DNA from: Archangium violaceum
GTDB lineage: Bacteria; Myxococcota; Myxococcia; Myxococcales; Myxococcaceae
Assembly (NCBI RefSeq): GCF_016859125.1
Contig: NZ_CP069338.1
Location: forward strand, 9,613,501-9,677,500
DNA: 64,000 nucleotides
Reading direction: 5' to 3'
Position 1 is the stretch's first letter. Each line of letters begins with the position of its first letter. The position numbers and the translations under genes are program-made. This document shows, piece by piece, positions 3,017-17,233 of the stretch. Under the pieces are notes generated by a model. It saw nothing but the letters and a program-made list of their open reading frames with translations, was not told the DNA's origin and ran no database searches.

Positions 3017-4321
3017 TCAGGCCGCGGAGGCCCGGGTCGTGCCGCCCGCTCTCCGCTCGAAGGCGATCCGCTCGAGCGCTCGGGCGGCGACCTGCTCGTC
3101 CTTGAGTTGCTTGATCTCGGCGGCGGCGCGTTGGGCGCGGGCTCGGATTCCGTCGTCCGCCAGGAGCGCGTTCAGCTCGGCGCGGATCGCCTCGGGGGTC
3201 GCCTTCTTCAGGGGCAGGTAGCGCCCGAGCCCCGCTCGCTCCACCAGCGTCGCGTTCAGGATCTGATCGCCGAAGAGGGGGATGACCAGCATGGGCAGCC
3301 CGTACGTCAGGGCGCGTCCCACCGTTCCCCAGCCACCATGGGTGATCAGCGCCCGCGCCTGGGGAAACACCGCATCGTGCGGAACGTACTGCTCGATACG
3401 GATATGGGCGCCGAGCCCCGCGGGAATGTCCCGGGCACCCGCGGACGTGGCGAGGACGGGGACGTTCATCGGCGCGACGGCCTCCAACACCCTCCGGAAC
3501 AGGCCGTTGTCACCGGGAGTCGTCGTCGTGCTGATGATCACGGTCCCGGGATCGACCCGCAGCGCCTCTTCGCGGGCCTTGGCGGGGACGTTGAAGGCCG
3601 TCGGACCGGCGAACAGCTGGTTGTCTCGGAGCGGGATGTCACCGGCGAGGCCCCGGTGGGCCATGACGATGTGCAGCCTGGGCGAGATCATCGACTGCAC
3701 GAGCTCCGCCGTACGGCCGGTATGGGGAGGGAGGCCGAGCCTGGCTCGTGGCGCCCGCAGGGAGATGAACTGGTTGAAGAACGCGTGCGCCAGCGCGGGG
3801 ACCTTGCCGAGGTGCCGCAGCGGCGGCTGCACGTTGAACATCAAGGGCAGCTCATCGCGCGTGAGGGTGGTGCCCATGTTCCCGGCGCTCACCCAGGGGA
3901 TGCCGGCACGCTCCGCGGCCCAGGCCGCGCCAACCTCGAAGAAGTCGTAGACCACGCAGTCCACCTGCTCGCGCGTGAGGATGGGCTCGAGCTCGAGCGC
4001 GAGCTGGACATTGTTCGCATGCGCGAAGCCGCGGAACTGCGCGAGGAAGAACGGAACCCTCGGCATCCAGCGTGGCAGCTCGGAGTGTGCGCCGATTGTC
4101 GCGAGGTCCTGCAGATCCAGCTGGTGCTCGTAGGGGAGCAGCTCCGCGCCGGCGGCCTTCACCTCGGCCGCCTTGGTGGCCTTCGCCTTGAACAGCACCC
4201 GGTGTCCACGGGAGGTGAGCTGCTGCGCGAGATCGAGCACACGCAGGAAGTGTCCTGGCGCGGTCGAGCTCGTCAGCAAGAACGTGGCGGGCTTTCGGGA
4301 AGCATCGGAGATCGAGGGCAT
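3017..4321 (-). CDS. UDP-glycosyltransferase, macrolide (MGT) type, GT1 family
   Basis: Transfers a sugar from a UDP-sugar to a small lipophilic acceptor; bacterial relatives inactivate macrolides. GT-B fold: N-terminal TAPGHFLRV contains the likely catalytic His (residue 24 from this start), and the C-terminal donor-binding motif HGGWGT is at about 328-333, followed by PLFGDQ. I chose the ATG at 4321 (434 aa) because AGGA lies 8 nt upstream; a GTG at 4363 in the same frame has no visible ribosome site and would add 14 disordered residues. First gene of a glycosyltransferase-exporter pair. The acceptor is unknown; self-resistance to an endogenous metabolite or xenobiotic detoxification are both possible. 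Confidence 0.88.
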   Translation of the reverse strand: MPSISDASRKPATFLLTSSTAPGHFLRVLDLAQQLTSRGHRVLFKAKATKAAEVKAAGAELLPYEHQLDLQDLATIGAHSELPRWMPRVPFFLAQFRGFAHANNVQLALELEPILTREQVDCVVYDFFEVGAAWAAERAGIPWVSAGNMGTTLTRDELPLMFNVQPPLRHLGKVPALAHAFFNQFISLRAPRARLGLPPHTGRTAELVQSMISPRLHIVMAHRGLAGDIPLRDNQLFAGPTAFNVPAKAREEALRVDPGTVIISTTTTPGDNGLFRRVLEAVAPMNVPVLATSAGARDIPAGLGAHIRIEQYVPHDAVFPQARALITHGGWGTVGRALTYGLPMLVIPLFGDQILNATLVERAGLGRYLPLKKATPEAIRAELNALLADDGIRARAQRAAAEIKQLKDEQVAARALERIAFERRAGGTTRASAA

Positions 4322-4380
4322 GCTCGTGTCCTGCACGGGGGGAGTCGGGGGAGAGGGGCTCACGCATCCGCGTGAACGAC

Positions 4381-4397
4381 CGCAACAAGAAGTTGCG
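4381..4397. promoter_or_regulatory. TetR operator candidate O1
   Basis: CGCAAC-AAGAA-GTTGCG, a perfect 6-bp-arm inverted repeat in the divergent region between the glycosyltransferase and tetR genes. It shares its core CGCAAC-N5-GTTGCGATGC with the second site centred 44 bp away, i.e. about four helical turns, so bound dimers would lie on the same DNA face. Confidence 0.7.
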
Positions 4398-4420
4398 ATG
4401 CCTATAGATCCGTCGCGTCA

Positions 4421-4445
4421 GCATCGCAACGAGAAGTTGCGATGC
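4421..4445. promoter_or_regulatory. TetR operator candidate O2
   Basis: GCATCGCAAC-GAGAA-GTTGCGATGC is a perfect inverted repeat with 10-bp arms and 5-nt spacer, 55 nt upstream of the tetR start. Symmetry, length and position are those of a TetR-family dimer operator. It probably gives both autoregulation and repression of the glycosyltransferase-exporter operon. Confidence 0.75.
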
Positions 4446-4500
4446 TCGCCCGAGCGCCAGGGTTGCCGGCGTTGAGAGTGTGTGATGCAGTGGGAGCCAA

Positions 4501-5112
4501 GTGGGAGCGAAGCGGAAATCCTCATCCTCCAAGAAGCGAGTGCTCGTGCGCGGAGAGCCGGTGGTGCGAGGCGTACTCGAAGCCACGCTCGAGGAGCTCT
4601 CCATCATTGGCTATGGCGCCCTGCGAATCGACGACGTGGCCGCTCGCGCTGGGGTCAACAAGACCACCATCTACCGGCGCTGGCCGACGAAGCAGGAGCT
4701 GGTGGGAGCGGCGCTCCGGTCGGTCACGGTCGATTGGATCGTCCAGCCAGACACGGGCTCGCTCCGTGGCGATCTGCTCGAGGTCGGGCGCCACATGGCC
4801 GCCGCCATGAGCTCAGCGGGGGGACAGGCTCTCAGGCGCATCCTCATCGCCGAGGAGCGCAACCCGGAGTTCATGGCCATCGCCAGTCAGTTGCGTGAGT
4901 CAATGGACGCCCTGCCGCTCCCCGTCATCGACGCAGCCAGGGCACGCGGCGAGTTCGCTCCAGGTTTCGAGGCCGCGCGGCTCTTCCGCTTCCTCGCGGG
5001 CATCCTCCAGCACCGGCTCTTCATGGAGGGCCGGGACATCGACGACGACTTCCTCCACCAGGTGGTGGACCTGCTGCTCTTCGGGGCGTTGTCACCCGAC
5101 AAGCGGAAGTAG
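4501..5112 (+). CDS. TetR/AcrR-family transcriptional repressor
   Basis: Predicted dimeric ligand-responsive DNA-binding repressor of 203 residues. The N-terminal helix-turn-helix is clear: IDDVAARAGVNKTTIYRRWPTK (about residues 43-64) is the TetR recognition-helix signature. The C-terminal half is a helical ligand-binding and dimerisation domain of the type found beside drug-resistance operons. Start is a GTG with GGAG 4 nt upstream. It diverges from the glycosyltransferase-MFS operon, and the intergenic region holds two palindromes that are its likely operators. The inducer is unknown but is presumably a substrate of the glycosyltransferase or exporter. Confidence 0.93.
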   Translation: MGAKRKSSSSKKRVLVRGEPVVRGVLEATLEELSIIGYGALRIDDVAARAGVNKTTIYRRWPTKQELVGAALRSVTVDWIVQPDTGSLRGDLLEVGRHMAAAMSSAGGQALRRILIAEERNPEFMAIASQLRESMDALPLPVIDAARARGEFAPGFEAARLFRFLAGILQHRLFMEGRDIDDDFLHQVVDLLLFGALSPDKRK

Positions 5113-5273
5113 GGGAGGGAGTGGGGCTGGCGCGTCAACGAGTCCAGGTGACACGTCAAGCTGTGAGATCGACGCGTTGACGGACACGCGCACCCACGAA
5201 CCCTTCCTCTGAGCTCGTGCCTGTCCGCCCCCTGTCGGGTGTTGGCCGGGGATTTGAAGAGCGCGGCGCTACC

Positions 5274-7169
5274 ATGACCATCCTCAAGTCTCGTCTGTCG
5301 TCGCGCCTTCCCAAGGCGCTGATGCTGGCTTCCTGCCTCGGGCTCACCGCCTGCCCCTCGACGCCTCCGAAGGAGCCGGATCCGCCCGATACCTCCAAGA
5401 TCGTCCGGCCCGATGACGCCATCGAGGGCCAGTACCTCTTCCTCTTCGATGAAGCGGCCGTCACACCGGACAAGGCCCGGGCCACGGCCGAGGAGCTGCT
5501 CGCCCAACACGGGGGCTCCCTGCTGGACGTCTACGAGAGCAGCCTGGTGGGCTTCTCGGCCAACGGGCTCGATGACCTCAAGGCGCTCGCCATCGCCTCG
5601 GATTCCCGCGTGAAGACCGTCGGCCAGGATGGCCGGATCAAGCTGGAGAGCGTCCAGGACAGTGCCACCTGGGGCCTGGATCGCATCGATACGCGCACCC
5701 GGGCGCTCGACCAGCGCTACGTGCAGAGCACCACGGGCAAGGGCGTGCACGTCTACGTCATCGATACGGGCATTCGCACCTCCCACGTGGACTTCGCGGG
5801 GCGTATCGGTAACGGCGCGACGGCGATCAACGACGGCCGGGGCGCGGAGGACTGCGGTGGGCACGGAACCCACGTGGCTGGCACCATCGGAGGCTCCACC
5901 TGGGGCGTGGCCAAGGACGTCATCCTCCACCCGGTACGCGTGCTCGATTGCGAAGGGTCGGGGAGCCTCGGCGGAGTCATCGCGGGCATCGACTGGGTGA
6001 CCCGGAGCCGCCAGAAGCCCGCGGTGGCCAACATGAGCCTGGGTGGTGGTGCCCACCCGTTCATCGATGACGCGGTCCGCAAGTCCATCGCGGCGGGCGT
6101 GACGTACGTCGTCGCGGCGGGAAACAACGACGGGGATGCGTGCCAGAAGAGCCCGGCGCGCACCCCCGAGGCGTTGACCGTGGGGGCCACGTCCATCGAG
6201 GACAAGCGCGCCTGGTTCTCCAACTGGGGCTCCTGCGTGGACCTCTTCGCGCCGGGCCAGGACATCAAGTCCACCTGGTACACCGCGAACGATGCGACCC
6301 ACACCATCAGCGGCACCTCCATGGCCGCGCCGCACGTGGCTGGCGTGGCGGCGCTCTTCCTGGAGAAGAACCCCTCCGCGACTCCCGCCGCCGTGACGAA
6401 GGCCCTCCTCGATGGCAGCACCCCGGACGCCGTGCAGGACGTGAAGGGCTCTCCCAACCGGCTGCTCTACTCGCTCGTCATCCCCCTCCAGGGGGACTGG
6501 TCCGAGGTGGCGGCGCTTCCGGACGGGGCCACCATCAAGCAACTCTCCGTCGGGAGCGCGAACGCCATCTGGGCACTCGCCACCAATGGAAACCACTACA
6601 AGTGGAACGGGTCTGCCTGGGACCATCAGCGATGCTGCGTGACAGAGATCTCCGGCGCCGCGGATGGCACGCTGTGGGCCACCAACCCCCCCGATGACAT
6701 GCGCGTCCTCCGGTGGGCTGACACCGAGTGGGATGCGTTCTCCATTCCTTCGGGAATGAAGCAGGTCTCGGTCGTCAACGCGAACACCGTGTGGGGGTTG
6801 GACAACGAGGGCTGGTTGTTCCAGTGGAATGAGTCCGCATGGAACTGGGACAAGAAGGTCTGCTGTGTCGCGCAGATCTCCGCCGGTTCCGACGGTGTGC
6901 TGTGGGCCACCAATCCAGCGGACTCCCTGCGCGTCCTGAAGTGGAACGGCACCGAGTGGGCGTACGACATCCCCACGGGGATGACCTACGTGTCCGTCGG
7001 CAGCGCCGCCCACATCTGGGCGCTCGATGGCTCCGGCAACGTCTACAAGTGGAGTGGCTCGGCCTGGACGCAGATGCCCGGCATGCTGAAGCAGATCTCC
7101 GCGGCGTCCGACGGAACGGTGTGGGGCATCACGGTGAATGACGGCATCATCCGGTTCATCACGCCCTGA
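5274..7169 (+). CDS. Secreted subtilisin-like serine protease with C-terminal tectonin propeller
   Basis: Predicted lipoprotein protease of 631 residues. The signal peptide ends in lipobox LTAC (Cys27). An inhibitor I9-type propeptide spans about 50-125, then a proteinase-K-like S8 domain with the triad Asp164 (VIDTG), His197 (GHGTH) and Ser349 (SGTSMAAP) plus oxyanion Asn284. From about 405 to the end there are six tectonin-like units alternating NAxWAL...YKWNGSAW and DGxLWATNP...LRVLKW forms, expected to fold as a six-bladed beta-propeller that could bind glycans or cell-surface material. A GTG at 5217 is in frame, but the ATG at 5274 places the signal peptide at the N-terminus. Role in predation or development is inference. 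Confidence 0.93.
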   Translation: MTILKSRLSSRLPKALMLASCLGLTACPSTPPKEPDPPDTSKIVRPDDAIEGQYLFLFDEAAVTPDKARATAEELLAQHGGSLLDVYESSLVGFSANGLDDLKALAIASDSRVKTVGQDGRIKLESVQDSATWGLDRIDTRTRALDQRYVQSTTGKGVHVYVIDTGIRTSHVDFAGRIGNGATAINDGRGAEDCGGHGTHVAGTIGGSTWGVAKDVILHPVRVLDCEGSGSLGGVIAGIDWVTRSRQKPAVANMSLGGGAHPFIDDAVRKSIAAGVTYVVAAGNNDGDACQKSPARTPEALTVGATSIEDKRAWFSNWGSCVDLFAPGQDIKSTWYTANDATHTISGTSMAAPHVAGVAALFLEKNPSATPAAVTKALLDGSTPDAVQDVKGSPNRLLYSLVIPLQGDWSEVAALPDGATIKQLSVGSANAIWALATNGNHYKWNGSAWDHQRCCVTEISGAADGTLWATNPPDDMRVLRWADTEWDAFSIPSGMKQVSVVNANTVWGLDNEGWLFQWNESAWNWDKKVCCVAQISAGSDGVLWATNPADSLRVLKWNGTEWAYDIPTGMTYVSVGSAAHIWALDGSGNVYKWSGSAWTQMPGMLKQISAASDGTVWGITVNDGIIRFITP

Positions 7170-7250: not shown

Positions 7251-9593
7251 TCAGGGGGTGTAGAGCACCGCCAGGTTCATGTTGTAGTTGGGGCCGCCCA
7301 CCACCAGCACCTGTCCGGAGGGCAGCAGCGTCGCGGTGTGGTCCGTACGCGCCTGGCCGGAATCCTCCGCGGGAGACCACGTGTCCGTCTCCGGGTCGTA
7401 CAGCTCCACGTCCTTGGCGATGGGCACATTGTAACCCCCCACCACCAGCACCTTGCCCGAGTTCAGCAACGTCGCCGTGTGCGAGCCACGGGCACTGGCC
7501 ATGTTGCTCACCGGCGTCCACGTGTCCGTCTCCGGGTCGTACAGCTCCGCGGTGGCCGTCAAGGCCGCGATGTCCGTGAATCCTCCTGTCACCAGCACCT
7601 TGCCCGAGGGCAGCAGCGTCGCCGTGTGCGAGCTACGGTCCTGGATCATGCTGCCCGTCAGCGTCCACGTGTTCGTCTCCGGGTCGTACAGCTCCGCCGA
7701 GGCCGTTCTGCCGCCTCCGGCCACCAGCACCTTGCCCGACTTCAGCATCGTCGCCGTGTGCCCGTTACGGGGCTCGGACGTGTTGCCCGACAGCGCCCAC
7801 GTGTCCGTCGCCGGATCGTACAGCTCCACCGTGGTCGTGGTCGATCTGCTGCCTCCGACCACCATCACCTTGCCCGAGGGCAGCAGGGTCGCCGTGTGCC
7901 CGTTGCGCGATTCGTTCATGGAGGCCACCCACCTCCACGTGTTCGTCTCCGGGTCGTACAGCTCCACCGGGGGATCGTCGAAGATGTAGGGTCTCCCTCC
8001 GGCCAGCAGCACCTTGCCCGAGGGCAACAGCGTCGCCGTAACCCCCCCCGTGTGCTCGAAAGTGTAGCCCCCGTACGCCCAGGTCCTCGTCGCCGGGTCG
8101 TACAGATCGGCTCGGTCCGTGCGGCCTCCGGCCACCAGCACCTTGCCCGAGGGCAACAGCGTCGCCGTGTGTTCGTGACGACCGGTGTACGAGACGGAGG
8201 AGGTGCTCTTCCAGGTGCCCTTCGCCGGGTCATACACCTCCGTGTTGAAGAGGTTGTAGCTGCTACCCAGGCCTCCGAGGAGCAGCACCTTGCCCGAGGG
8301 CAACAGCGTCGCCGAGGCCTGGCCCCGGCCCATGTACAGCGAGCCGGTGGCCGTCCAGGTTCCCGTTTCCGGATCGTACAGCTCCGTCTTGCTGTAAGCC
8401 GTCCACTGGTTCATTCCCGTGGCCACCAGCACCTTTCCCGATGCCAGCACCGTGGCCGCGAGCTTCTCACGCGGATGGGCCATGGCTCCCGTCGAGGTCC
8501 ACGTGCCCGTCGCCGGGTCATACACCTGCGCCGTCGCCAGCGTCGTGCTCGCGGTCTTCCCCCCCACCACCAGCACCTTGCCCGACTGCAGGAGCGCCGC
8601 CGCGTGCCAGGACCGGGCGTCATCCAGGGCCCCGGTGGTGCTCCACGCTCCCGTCTCGGGGTCGTACAGCTCCACCACCGTCGTCGCGCCTCCGGCCACC
8701 AGCACCTTGCCCGAGGGCAGCAGCGTCGCCGTGTGGGACTGGTGTGGCGCGGACAGGGTCCCCGCCGGGCTCCACGTGCCCGTCGCCGGATCGTACAGCT
8801 CCGCCGTCGCGTGGCTCACGCCATTGGCGTCACGGCCTCCCACCACCAGCACCTTGCCCGAGGGCAGCAGGGTCGCCGTGTGATCGGCACGGGCCACGGC
8901 CATGGAGCCCGTCGGGACCGACGTCCGCGTCTCCGGATCATACAGCTCCGCCGTCGCGTGGTCGCCCAAGCCCAGCATCTTGAGGCCTCCGGCCACCAGC
9001 ACCTTGCCCGAGGGCAGCAGCGTGGCGGTGTGGGACGCGCGGAACGTCACCAGCTGCCCGCCCAGGATGGACAGCTCCGTCTCCGGGTCGTACAGCTCCG
9101 TCATCCGGGCCGCGGACTCGGAGGACCACTGGTCTCCGCCAATCACCAGCACCTTGCCCGAGGGCAGCAGCGTCGCCGTATGGGGCTCATGGGCCCAGCT
9201 CAACCCGCCCGTCGAGGCCCACGAGCCGGAGGGCGGGCAACCCGGCGCTCCCCGGATGGTGAAGGCCTTGGACGTGGACAGCCCCAGCGCGTTGCTCACC
9301 GTGGCCGTGATGGACACGGGTTTCTCGCCGGGCACGCATTCGGGCACCGTCCAGGCGACCTCGCTCGTCGAGGTGGTGTTCGTGGGAGCGCCCAGCGTTC
9401 CCGTGCTCGCCTCCCACGTGAAGCCGAGCGCGGTGTTCTGCGGATCCTTCGCCTCCAGCCGCAGCGTCACGGTGCCGCTCTCCGGCACGGGGGAGGACTG
9501 GGAGGAACTCACCACCTCCGGCTGGCAACCCGAAACAATCATCATCCATGCAGCCACCAACCCTGGCAGCAGCATGCGCCCCCTCTGATTCAT
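7251..9593 (-). CDS. Kelch-repeat lipoprotein
   Basis: 780-residue predicted surface or periplasmic lipoprotein. The signal peptide ends in lipobox VSGC (Cys23); an Ig-like segment follows (about 35-110), then 14 kelch units, each with a HTATLLPSGKVLVAGG-type strand pair followed by AELYDPETGTWT. Fourteen units fit two seven-bladed propellers or one longer chain. The unit is about 50 residues and the coding DNA is highly repetitive, with the stretch reading CACCTTGCCCGAGGGCAGCA in the plus strand recurring almost unchanged in most units, suggesting recent duplication or gene conversion. GGAGG is 6 nt before the ATG. Likely role is protein or glycan binding; no catalytic motif is visible. Confidence 0.92.
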   Translation of the reverse strand: MNQRGRMLLPGLVAAWMMIVSGCQPEVVSSSQSSPVPESGTVTLRLEAKDPQNTALGFTWEASTGTLGAPTNTTSTSEVAWTVPECVPGEKPVSITATVSNALGLSTSKAFTIRGAPGCPPSGSWASTGGLSWAHEPHTATLLPSGKVLVIGGDQWSSESAARMTELYDPETELSILGGQLVTFRASHTATLLPSGKVLVAGGLKMLGLGDHATAELYDPETRTSVPTGSMAVARADHTATLLPSGKVLVVGGRDANGVSHATAELYDPATGTWSPAGTLSAPHQSHTATLLPSGKVLVAGGATTVVELYDPETGAWSTTGALDDARSWHAAALLQSGKVLVVGGKTASTTLATAQVYDPATGTWTSTGAMAHPREKLAATVLASGKVLVATGMNQWTAYSKTELYDPETGTWTATGSLYMGRGQASATLLPSGKVLLLGGLGSSYNLFNTEVYDPAKGTWKSTSSVSYTGRHEHTATLLPSGKVLVAGGRTDRADLYDPATRTWAYGGYTFEHTGGVTATLLPSGKVLLAGGRPYIFDDPPVELYDPETNTWRWVASMNESRNGHTATLLPSGKVMVVGGSRSTTTTVELYDPATDTWALSGNTSEPRNGHTATMLKSGKVLVAGGGRTASAELYDPETNTWTLTGSMIQDRSSHTATLLPSGKVLVTGGFTDIAALTATAELYDPETDTWTPVSNMASARGSHTATLLNSGKVLVVGGYNVPIAKDVELYDPETDTWSPAEDSGQARTDHTATLLPSGQVLVVGGPNYNMNLAVLYTP

Positions 9594-9728
9594 GTGTTCC
9601 TCCGTCGAAAAGTCGCACGTTCATCGCGCGACGCGCGGCACTGTATATCCGACGGTGGATTCCCATCGGACTGACGTATATGGCTCCGGGTCGAATACAG
9701 ACCCTGCTGTTCCGCATGAGGAATGGAC

Positions 9729-15213: not shown

Positions 15214-15435
15214 CTACTTCATGTTGTTGAGCACCTGCATCGTCGTGTCGTTCTTCAGGACCTTGGAGATGAAGGCGACGGTCTCCTGCTGCTTCTGGAG
15301 CGAGAGCTGGGCCTCGGCCCTCGCCCGATCGGCTCCCGAGAGACCGGACAGCAGTTTCTTCTCCTCCGGGGAGAAGCCGGTGGAATGCTTCAACGCCGCA
15401 TGCGTGGCGTCATTCGCGGCGTGGCTCACGGACAT
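15214..15435 (-). CDS. Small helical protein, function unknown
   Basis: 73 residues beginning MSVSHAANDATH, predicted largely alpha-helical with a Lys/Gln-rich helix (RAEAQLSLQKQQETVAFISK) and ending VLNNMK; no Cys, signal peptide or membrane span. GGAGA is 7 nt before the ATG, supporting translation. It diverges from the graspetide precursor across 300 bp. The look is that of a small cytosolic or secreted helical-hairpin protein. No family recognised, and a link to the neighbouring peptide is only positional. Confidence 0.65.
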   Translation of the reverse strand: MSVSHAANDATHAALKHSTGFSPEEKKLLSGLSGADRARAEAQLSLQKQQETVAFISKVLKNDTTMQVLNNMK

Positions 15436-15493
15436 GACAGTCTCCAGATGCTCCAGATGAGGGTGGGCTGCGGAGGCTCGGACCCTGCCTCTC

Positions 15494-15508
15494 CCGCGAT
15501 TATCGCGG
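15494..15508. promoter_or_regulatory. 15-bp palindrome in the divergent region before the graspetide gene
   Basis: CCGCGAT-T-ATCGCGG, a perfect palindrome with one central base, lies 58 nt upstream of the small helical-protein gene and 226 nt upstream of the peptide precursor. Candidate operator. The rest of 15436-15734 shows no other gene. Confidence 0.35.
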
Positions 15509-15734
15509 TGCGTCCCGAAAGGTTGCTTCCGTATTTTGTCCGCACCCGGGCCGCCCGGGGGAAGCCCTTGATCTTCCTGGTTCTTTCCGTGGTGGGCGGG
15601 CAGGGGAGCGCGCCCGCGAAACGTGGGTCGTCACATCTGGCCCGTGCGGACTCGGTCCTATCGAGTCACTGGAGCGCCGCCCCCCCGAGCGATGCGGTGG
15701 CTCGTGCATCCCAAGGACCGACAGGAGATCCGAC

Positions 15735-15956
15735 ATGAAGAAGAACGCGAAGGACTCGGAGTCGAGGAAGGGAAAGAAGCCCTTCTTCGCGCGTTTGCTG
15801 GAGACGCAGGAGCTCGAACAGGTGGCGGGCGGCACCGGCACCGTGTCCAAGAAGTACCCCTCGGATTCGGACGAGTGCGGCGGAGGCGGAGGCGGAGGCG
15901 GGCCCATCGTCACCCTGAAGTTCCCCTCCGACGACGCGGATGTGTCCGGCTATTAG
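15735..15956 (+). CDS. Microviridin-type (graspetide) RiPP precursor with two core motifs
   Basis: 73-residue precursor peptide. The leader carries PFFARLL (residues 16-22), the helix recognised by microviridin ATP-grasp ligases (family form PFFARFL), then VAGG (30-33), a likely double-Gly cleavage site. Core 1, SKKYPSDSDE (38-47), fits the microviridin pattern T/S-x-K-x-P-S-D-x-D/E-D/E in full. Eight Gly (49-56) separate it from core 2, TLKFPSDDAD (60-69), which has Ala at the acceptor position normally used by the Ser ester. One Cys (48) follows core 1. AGGAG lies 7 nt before the ATG. No ATP-grasp ligase, acetyltransferase or exporter gene occurs in the window, so processing enzymes must be encoded elsewhere. 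Confidence 0.88.
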   Translation: MKKNAKDSESRKGKKPFFARLLETQELEQVAGGTGTVSKKYPSDSDECGGGGGGGGPIVTLKFPSDDADVSGY

Positions 15957-16036
15957 TGGCGTGGCCACGAAGCCCGTGGACAGAGCCGTGTCGCGCATGC
16001 ACCCTCACCGGGGCGCTCCAACGAACGAGGTGACCG

Positions 16037-17233
16037 GTGGCTTCAGAATGGGACGTGCGGACCCGGCTCGTGCAGGCCGATGCCGATGACGAGGAGGGGG
16101 CTCCGCTCAACACGCCCCTGGTGCTCTCCACCACCTTCCGCGCCCACCCCGAGGGGGTGGGGTTCTCCGCCGAGGACATGCAGGAGGAGTCGCCCTACTT
16201 CTACGCGCGTTGGTCGACTCCCACCGTGCGCACCCTGGAGCGGCGTCTGGCCGAGCTCGAGGGCGGAGAGGATGCCCTCTGCTTCGCCAGCGGAATGGCC
16301 GCCATCACCGGGCTCCTGCTGCACCTGCTCGCGCCCGGAGACCACCTCGTCATCAGTGACATCTGCTACGCGGGCGCGGCGGAGTTCGTCCGCGGGAAGC
16401 TGCGGCGCTTCGGCGTGGAGGTGAGCCTCGTCGATACCTCGGACCTCGACCAGGTGCGCGCCGCCCTGCGGCCGAACACGCGGCTCGTCTACATCGAGAC
16501 GCCGTGCAACCCCATCCTGAAGCTCACCGACGTGGCGGCGGTGGCCTCCCTCGCGCACGGCGCCGGGGCGCGCCTCGCCGTGGACTCGACGCTCGCGACA
16601 CCCATGGGCCTGCAGCCGCTCGCCCTCGGCGCCGACTTCGTCATCCACTCGTTGACCAAGTACATCGGGGGCCACGGTGACGTGCTGGGAGGTGTCGTCG
16701 TGGGGCGGCGGACGGACCTGGCCGCCCTGCGTCAGGACTCGCTCATCCACCTGGGCGCCGTGCTCAATCCCTTCCCCGCGTGGTTGATCCTCCGCAGCCT
16801 CGCCACCCTGCCTCAACGCATGGCCGCCCACGAGGCCTCGGCCCGGGCAGTGGCCTCGTTCCTCGAGTCCCACCCGCGCGTGCACCACGTCCTCCATCCC
16901 GGGCTCGATTCACATCCGCAGGCGGAGCTCGCGCGCGGGCAGCTGCGCAATACCTCGGGGATGATCGCCTTCCAGGCGGAGGACGGCCCGGCGGTGGCGC
17001 GTCGCCTCGCCGACAGGCTGAAGGTCATCAAGTACGCCGTCTCGCTCGGCAAGCCGCACAGCCTCGTCTTCTACCTGCCCACGGACGATCTGCAGCGGAC
17101 CTCCTTCCAGCTCCCGCCCGAGCTCCTGGCGCGCTACCGGACCTGGGCGGGAGACGGCATCTTCCGCCTGTCGATCGGACTGGAGGCCCCGGCGGACCTC
17201 ATCCGCGACCTCGAGCAGGCCCTGTCCCCCTGA
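16037..17233 (+). CDS. Cys/Met metabolism PLP-dependent enzyme (cystathionine gamma-synthase/lyase family)
   Basis: 398-residue fold-type I PLP enzyme acting on sulfur amino acids by gamma- or beta-elimination/replacement. PLP Lys208 sits in HSLTKYIGGHGDVLGG; Asp183 (AVDST) should pair with the pyridine nitrogen; SGMAAI (85-90) contributes to the phosphate site. The family motif YSRxxNPT appears as YARWSTPT (56-63), a deviation in the substrate-facing loop, so the exact reaction (synthase, lyase or methionine gamma-lyase) cannot be assigned. GTG start with GAGG 6 nt upstream. It lies 80 nt after the graspetide precursor on the same strand, so cotranscription is possible, and its stop is 1 nt from the stop of the convergent pseudokinase gene. 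Confidence 0.9.
   Translation: MASEWDVRTRLVQADADDEEGAPLNTPLVLSTTFRAHPEGVGFSAEDMQEESPYFYARWSTPTVRTLERRLAELEGGEDALCFASGMAAITGLLLHLLAPGDHLVISDICYAGAAEFVRGKLRRFGVEVSLVDTSDLDQVRAALRPNTRLVYIETPCNPILKLTDVAAVASLAHGAGARLAVDSTLATPMGLQPLALGADFVIHSLTKYIGGHGDVLGGVVVGRRTDLAALRQDSLIHLGAVLNPFPAWLILRSLATLPQRMAAHEASARAVASFLESHPRVHHVLHPGLDSHPQAELARGQLRNTSGMIAFQAEDGPAVARRLADRLKVIKYAVSLGKPHSLVFYLPTDDLQRTSFQLPPELLARYRTWAGDGIFRLSIGLEAPADLIRDLEQALSP

Follow-up and report, generated by a model that had tools for sequence, protein, structure and literature searches.

The open reading frame at positions 15,735-15,956 of the analysed DNA, a stretch of 64 kb here called the window (positions 9,613,501-9,677,500 of a genome that consists of one contig of 12,677,854 bases), encodes a class II microviridin precursor. 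It is quite likely that its maturation is genetically split, the precursor being modified in trans by a pair of ATP-grasp ligases whose genes lie at 275-277 kb in this genome. The computed basis for this reading consists of the family assignment, the open ligase pair, the missing adjacent precursor at the ligase locus, synteny, and conservation of the ring residues. The host bacterium is probably a soil predator, and the peptide is probably stapled into two rigid protease-blocking heads.

The features of the precursor locus are the following (coordinates of the window):

15735-15956, plus strand: two-core microviridin-type graspetide precursor, 73 aa, ATG at 15735, stop codon at 15954-15956

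15780-15800, plus strand: leader helix PFFARLL, residues 16-22

15822-15833, plus strand: double-glycine processing site VAGG, residues 30-33, read from the translation

15846-15875, plus strand: core 1, SKKYPSDSDE, residues 38-47, with predicted S38-D44 and S43-D46 esters and a predicted K40-E47 amide

15876-15911, plus strand: linker CGGGGGGGGPIV, residues 48-59, including a run of eight glycines (Gly8)

15912-15941, plus strand: core 2, TLKFPSDDAD, residues 60-69, with a predicted T60-D66 ester and a predicted K62-D69 amide

16037-17233, plus strand: PLP enzyme of Cys/Met metabolism, not a maturation gene, 80 bp downstream of the precursor

The sequence encoded by the precursor gene, MKKNAKDSESRKGKKPFFARLLETQELEQVAGGTGTVSKKYPSDSDECGGGGGGGGPIVTLKFPSDDADVSGY, matches two curated models of the microviridin/marinostatin precursor family above their cut-offs, NF033738 of NCBIfam (42.1 bits, E 1.2e-10; cut-off 26) and PF12559 (37 bits; cut-off 21). 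This bears out the original prediction of a microviridin-type precursor with two cores; PFFARLL, VAGG, both cores and the Gly8 linker are all seen in the translation, and the numbers that it gave to T60, K62, D66, D67, A68 and D69 are correct. The two-core layout turned out to be the usual one in this precursor family and not a special feature. In the whole genome of 12.68 Mb the precursor is the single match of NF033738 (E up to 10) and the only over-cut-off place for PF12559, the two further PF12559 matches scoring about 12 bits each, below the cut-off. A genome-wide scan with the microviridin-type leader pattern gave one occurrence, and the reversed pattern, used as a control, gave none. 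By the two family models and the leader pattern, this is the sole microviridin-type precursor found in the genome. It carries two cores behind one leader and a double-glycine site, which agrees with the definition of class II microviridins (at least two cores behind one leader plus a double-glycine site) in the relevant sections of PMC13039773 and PMC7823629. The leader helix corresponds to the PFFARxL-like motif bound by microviridin ATP-grasp ligases, as described in PMC7823629. The family is a known one, and the peculiarities of this member are small.

The peculiarities were assessed in 154 cores from 43 distinct precursors, including those of Sorangium, Nostoc and Calothrix relatives, with the leader pattern visible in 42 of the 43 within the stretch kept. 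The core patterns require S or T at position 4 and K or R at position 6 (K, R or A in the tally of Lys6 and acid13), and cores with other residues at these positions fall outside the tallies. The ring rule behind the predicted rings of both cores is that given in part of PMC7823629. Compared with the pattern of six ring residues T-x-K-x-P-S-D-x-E/D-E/D, core 1 has a conservative substitution, Ser38 at the first-ester donor position (position 4), where Thr stands otherwise (1/154 cores). Core 2 has Ala68 at the Ser-ester acceptor position, so that the usual ring is impossible there; alanine at this position is unique among the 154 cores. A non-acid Ser-ester acceptor is found in three cores altogether, the other two having His (G046, in the linked precursor of a member of the same genus) and Ile (a Calothrix relative). 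The amide donor Lys6 and the amide acceptor acid13 are intact in both cores. The absence of a Ser-ester acceptor in core 2 had been predicted and is confirmed. The claim that core 1 can form three rings stands if Ser38 serves as donor, but the canonical first donor itself is lacking, this residue being Ser and not Thr.

Two syntenic orthologues (in G043 and G044) have linkers of eight residues of mixed sequence, without the Gly8 run. In the leaders of these orthologues (loci L072 and L074) Arg is replaced by His or Gln (PFFAHLL, PFFAQLL); the linked precursors of the same genomes keep Arg.

No maturation genes were recognised near the precursor, where an FKBP-type isomerase gene, a DUF188 gene, the PLP enzyme gene and an ORF of 73 aa were examined. 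The next ORF beyond these reads as a protein kinase, judging from its sequence. The 73-aa ORF lies just upstream of the precursor (15214-15435, minus strand) and has no NCBIfam or Pfam match (E up to 10). The FKBP-type isomerase was considered as a partner protein, a role that a PpiC-type isomerase has in group 21 graspetides according to part of PMC13097080. This candidate was rejected: the two isomerase families are different, and the FKBP gene also occurs in G046, which has no precursor at this site. A sigma-70 scan of positions 15400-16100 gave no promoter-like site (chance expectation 0.1) and one terminator-like site upstream, at 15559-15578 (0.4 expected). In a myxobacterium such a result is of little significance.

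The window contains no homologue of MvdC or MvdD, the best tblastn match with both ligases of the genome having E 3.8, and the original prediction was right in finding no ATP-grasp ligase there. It had expected a ligase acting in trans, and the search of the complete genome for graspetide-type ligases indeed yielded an adjacent, open MvdC-like/MvdD-like pair at 275,203-277,157 on the minus strand (ligase locus L007), far from the precursor. The upstream ligase of the pair is nearest to AMdnB (7m4s) and then to 5ig8, which we take to be MdnB; it is of the amide-forming (MvdC-like) type and scores 380 bits against TIGR04185. The downstream ligase is nearest to 5ig9, named as MdnC in PMC5934393, is of the ester-forming (MvdD-like) type, and scores 420 bits against TIGR04184. 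Both are below the TIGRFAM equivalog cut-offs, as are all matches in the order. Cognate ligases of the MvdC and MvdD types are present in the genome in the form of this pair. The layout with precursor and ligases in one cluster, which is usual but does not define the chemistry, is not found here: the distance from the precursor to the pair is 9.35 Mb along the contig and about 3.3 Mb the other way round, if the chromosome is circular, as assumed.

The MvdC-like ligase (L007 8178-9203, minus strand) carries an insertion of one residue (DDLEEGL), which the 16 other copies in the alignment lack and which is presumably situated near the region that contacts the leader in MdnC. Directly downstream of the MvdD-like gene there is an ORF of 76 aa (L007 6868-7098, minus strand), which is found with 87-90% identity at the same place in six of the 16 relatives' ligase loci (tblastn). 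The genome also has a second graspetide system at 7.70 Mb (locus L008), where an ATP-grasp gene with a RimK-like domain (4305-5598; 79 bits to TIGR04187) is accompanied by an ORF of 53 aa with LARIEGG and a TTLACGEE core. This core presumably resembles the plesiocin pattern TTxxxxEE.

The pairwise omega of the two ligases against those of relatives is 0.28-0.34; these and the dN/dS values below are Nei-Gojobori estimates on high-GC sequence and are indicative only. For the MvdD-like ligase, lineage-specific amino acid changes are more numerous in the genome under study (G000) than in the relative in all four comparisons (28 vs 10, 27 vs 16 and 33 vs 14 with G072 as the outgroup; 27 vs 17 with G045). 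For the MvdC-like ligase they are fewer in three comparisons (13 vs 23, 14 vs 18 and 16 vs 31 with G072) and more numerous in one (30 vs 13 with G045). For the G000 MvdD-like gene the branch ratio is 0.70 (whole tree, 0.41), a value that other branches also reach. Some relaxation of the MvdD-like gene is conceivable given these counts; as the relative-rate counts and branch ratios are mixed, we make no claim of relaxed selection on the ligases.

The ligase locus was compared with those of five other members of the genus, G043, G044, G045, G046 and G047. It aligns on both sides with the loci of G043, G044 and G046, and on the upstream side with those of G045 and G047. In all five relatives a precursor is situated between a conserved upstream block and the start of the ligase genes. 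The corresponding stretch of G000 contains a DUF4123 gene, weakly similar to the chaperone Tla1, and a gene of 172 aa without family, and the ORF search for a precursor at this locus gave no candidate. In G000 and G043 the upstream block includes tRNA-like stretches and a gene whose sequence is of the HNH type. A further gene, which we take to encode a P1-type peptidase, is present in the block of G043 and also in those of G044 and G046, which align with it there without gaps. Since five of five relatives have a precursor at this place and G000 has unrelated genes, the linked precursor is missing in G000, most simply by loss. The presence of a precursor beside the pair in relatives and of unrelated genes here suggests that the precursor in the window is probably the sole remaining substrate of the pair, matured in trans.

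At the precursor locus itself, a precursor is present in three of the six genus members. In G043 and G044 the syntenic precursor lies between the FKBP gene and kinase-like and acyltransferase-like genes. No precursor was found at the matching site in the 19-kb stretches of G045, G046 and G047, where the kinase and acyltransferase neighbours are kept in all three, the FKBP gene only in G046 and the PLP enzyme gene only in G047. The PLP enzyme gene is at the matching place in G044, too, 1.3 kb from its precursor.

Over-cut-off precursors were found in 22 of the 145 genomes of the order, and MvdD-like ligases of at least 367 bits in the same 22 genomes; a ligase match was obtained in 34 genomes altogether, and in the other 12 no match exceeds 202 bits. 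The precursor loci, counted by hand from the search rows, number 34, with 23 beside a ligase and 10 unlinked. The last one, from the draft genome G133, has precursor and ligase on different contigs and was left out of the linked/unlinked split; its 12 cores are included in the core count for genomes with two ligases. The unlinked loci belong to eight genomes, two each in G044 and G074 and one each in G000, G043, G045, G047, G072 and G073, all within two genera, probably Archangium (g1) and Cystobacter (g6). When both G000 ligases were compared by tblastn with the ten unlinked stretches (the window and nine 19-kb loci), nothing was observed at E below 1 in nine of them. The tenth, L080 of G074, contains broken MvdD-like pieces (9267-9653) beside an intact two-core precursor. 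This remnant matches the copy of G073 at 95% over 60 aa, and G073 has an open pair (L088). No MvdC-like remnant is recognisable in L080, the weaker MvdC-like matches overlapping the same bases as the MvdD-like ones. This locus looks like a case of unlinking by ligase decay.

The unlinked precursors shared by three genomes of g6 (L077, L078, L079) have no double-glycine site following the leader. Some precursors from other genera of the family (L020, L028, L030 and L032) are very long and have 12-16 cores. Among five outgroup genomes, precursors are beside ligases in four. In the Nostoc sp. S13 MAG (G147, L106) the precursor and the ligase pair are on different contigs, which may be due to a break between contigs or to a further unlinked precursor; G149, one of the other four, also has a second ligase pair, with no NF033738 match at 1e-5 on its contig. 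No reports of unlinked microviridin precursors were found by title or beginning of abstract in the open-licence literature. The novelty lies in the split layout, in which the linked precursor is missing, as part of a broader pattern of unlinked precursors across two genera.

The amide-forming residues of the unlinked precursors are well conserved: Lys6 and acid13 are kept in all 20 cores of the ten precursors, and acid12 in 19. In genomes with both ligases (unlinked cores included) Lys6 is present in 105/108 cores and acid13 in 108/108. The respective counts are 0/22 and 6/22 in G050, G051 and G128, which at a threshold of 1e-30 have only the MvdD-like ligase. Since these residues are kept in two-ligase genomes and in unlinked cores and are lost (Lys6) or mostly lost (acid13) in genomes with only the MvdD-like ligase, their retention goes with the presence of an amide-forming ligase, whether or not it is linked. 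The replacement of Lys6 is mostly Arg at L031 (G051), L034 (G050) and L035 (G128), and acid13 is mostly lost in two of these three genomes. In all seven pairs of unlinked orthologues (three groups; small counts) omega is lower in the leader plus cores than in the rest (0.08-0.51 and 0.27-1.70, respectively), the division being defined by the conserved motifs themselves. For the precursor of the window and its orthologues, the leader-plus-cores value is 0.19-0.23.

Modification in trans, the pattern of rings, processing and inhibitor function are predictions from sequence, and the pathway may be as follows. The precursor would be translated at its own locus, and its leader helix would recruit the MvdD-like ligase first, with formation of the ester rings; the MvdC-like ligase would then form the amide ring on each core. 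This order and the role of the leader are taken from microviridin work, as described in parts of PMC5934393 and PMC7823629; the former also describes distributive processing of a multi-core precursor and an enzyme that can be activated by the leader in trans. Core 1 would acquire up to three rings, provided Ser38 acts as donor, and core 2 would acquire two, or three only if Asp67 replaces the absent acceptor. The esters may be fewer than predicted, because Ser38 and Ala68 touch ester positions and the enzymes are inflexible at the conserved cyclisation residues (PMC7823629, in the part concerned). A C39-type peptidase/transporter encoded elsewhere would cut at VAGG and export the product, so that a single two-headed peptide is released. 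The genome encodes four C39 peptidase domains that score over the cut-off, none of them within the window; a C39-type transporter often goes with precursors of classes II and III, according to part of PMC13039773. By analogy with the family, the product most likely inhibits serine proteases.

One alternative is that the precursor is a decaying leftover, whose peptide has stayed unmodified after the loss of linkage, with Ser38, Ala68 and the glycine run as early decay. Indeed, among the 154 cores each of the two substitutions has a single occurrence, in this precursor in both cases, the Gly run is not found in the syntenic orthologues, and in all five relatives the ligases have a precursor beside them. 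However, the ORF and the leader PFFARLL are intact, whereas His or Gln replaces the Arg in the two syntenic orthologues; Lys6 and acid13 are kept in both cores, the omega of leader plus cores is low, and the ligases are still open though the linked precursor is gone. We regard such decay as improbable. It is very improbable that the 275 kb pair has another, unrecognised substrate and that the peptide is served by a different ATP-grasp enzyme, for instance the one at 7.70 Mb, or by none. The models could miss an unrecognised precursor, and there is a third graspetide-type ATP-grasp at 7,701,713-7,702,555 (57 bits). On the other hand, that enzyme has its own adjacent candidate precursor, whose leader is different and whose core is of the TTxxxxEE type; the microviridin-type leader pattern is single in the genome, no ORF at the ligase locus is a precursor candidate, and strong MvdD-like ligases co-occur with over-cut-off NF033738 precursors in the same 22 of 145 genomes.

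Modification of the distant precursor by the pair is compatible with a variant in which the cores are separated by a cut within the Gly8 linker, yielding two small peptides. C39-type sites normally need a helical stretch preceding GG; here such a stretch is present only ahead of VAGG, and the linkers of the two syntenic orthologues contain no GG. However, glycine makes up most of the linker, and double-glycine sites may occur between the cores of class II precursors, as noted in part of PMC7823629. We regard this variant as rather unlikely.

A more general, tentative reading is one in which ATP-grasp ligases of the two genera provide a genome-wide maturation service and precursors repeatedly become unlinked from them. 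The unlinking could proceed in two ways, through decay of the ligase next to a precursor (G074) or through disappearance of the precursor next to a ligase (G000). The G000 pair would be kept for one distant precursor whose ester chemistry is changing (Ser38, Ala68), giving an unequal two-headed peptide. Cluster mining anchored on ligases would miss this peptide and score the ligase locus as precursor-less. The genome is a natural experiment: as the only recognisable substrate is distant, modification of the precursor, if true, would prove in-trans maturation of graspetides in nature. Core 2 is a natural test of whether a microviridin ligase uses an adjacent Asp or skips the ring.

Many prochlorosin precursors are located away from their enzyme. 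This system (ProcM/SyncM), in which one promiscuous RiPP enzyme acts on many precursors, is described in part of PMC10783134. Prochlorosins are lanthipeptides with tens of precursors, whereas here an ATP-grasp pair is combined with one to four precursor loci per genome (in genomes with unlinked ones). Conserved microviridin-type clusters of Archangium, Cystobacter and Sorangium, of the antiSMASH type, are listed in Table 5 of PMC12766979, which gives cluster types only, with no mention of unlinked precursors in the part concerned; the lineage is probably the same. The marinostatin-type graspetides without MdnB/MvdC, described in part of PMC7823629, have fewer rings than full microviridins, as would be the case here; unlike them, the present system has an MvdC-like ligase and amide residues in both cores, and it is the Ser ester that core 2 loses. 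A close analogue in architecture is the class II system AMdnA/AMdnC of Anabaena sp. PCC 7120 (PMC5934393), where one leader likewise precedes several microviridin-like cores. However, AMdnA, as presented there, has three cores and belongs to one gene cluster, whereas the precursor considered here has two cores, a Gly8 linker, unlinked enzymes, and one core without a ring acceptor.
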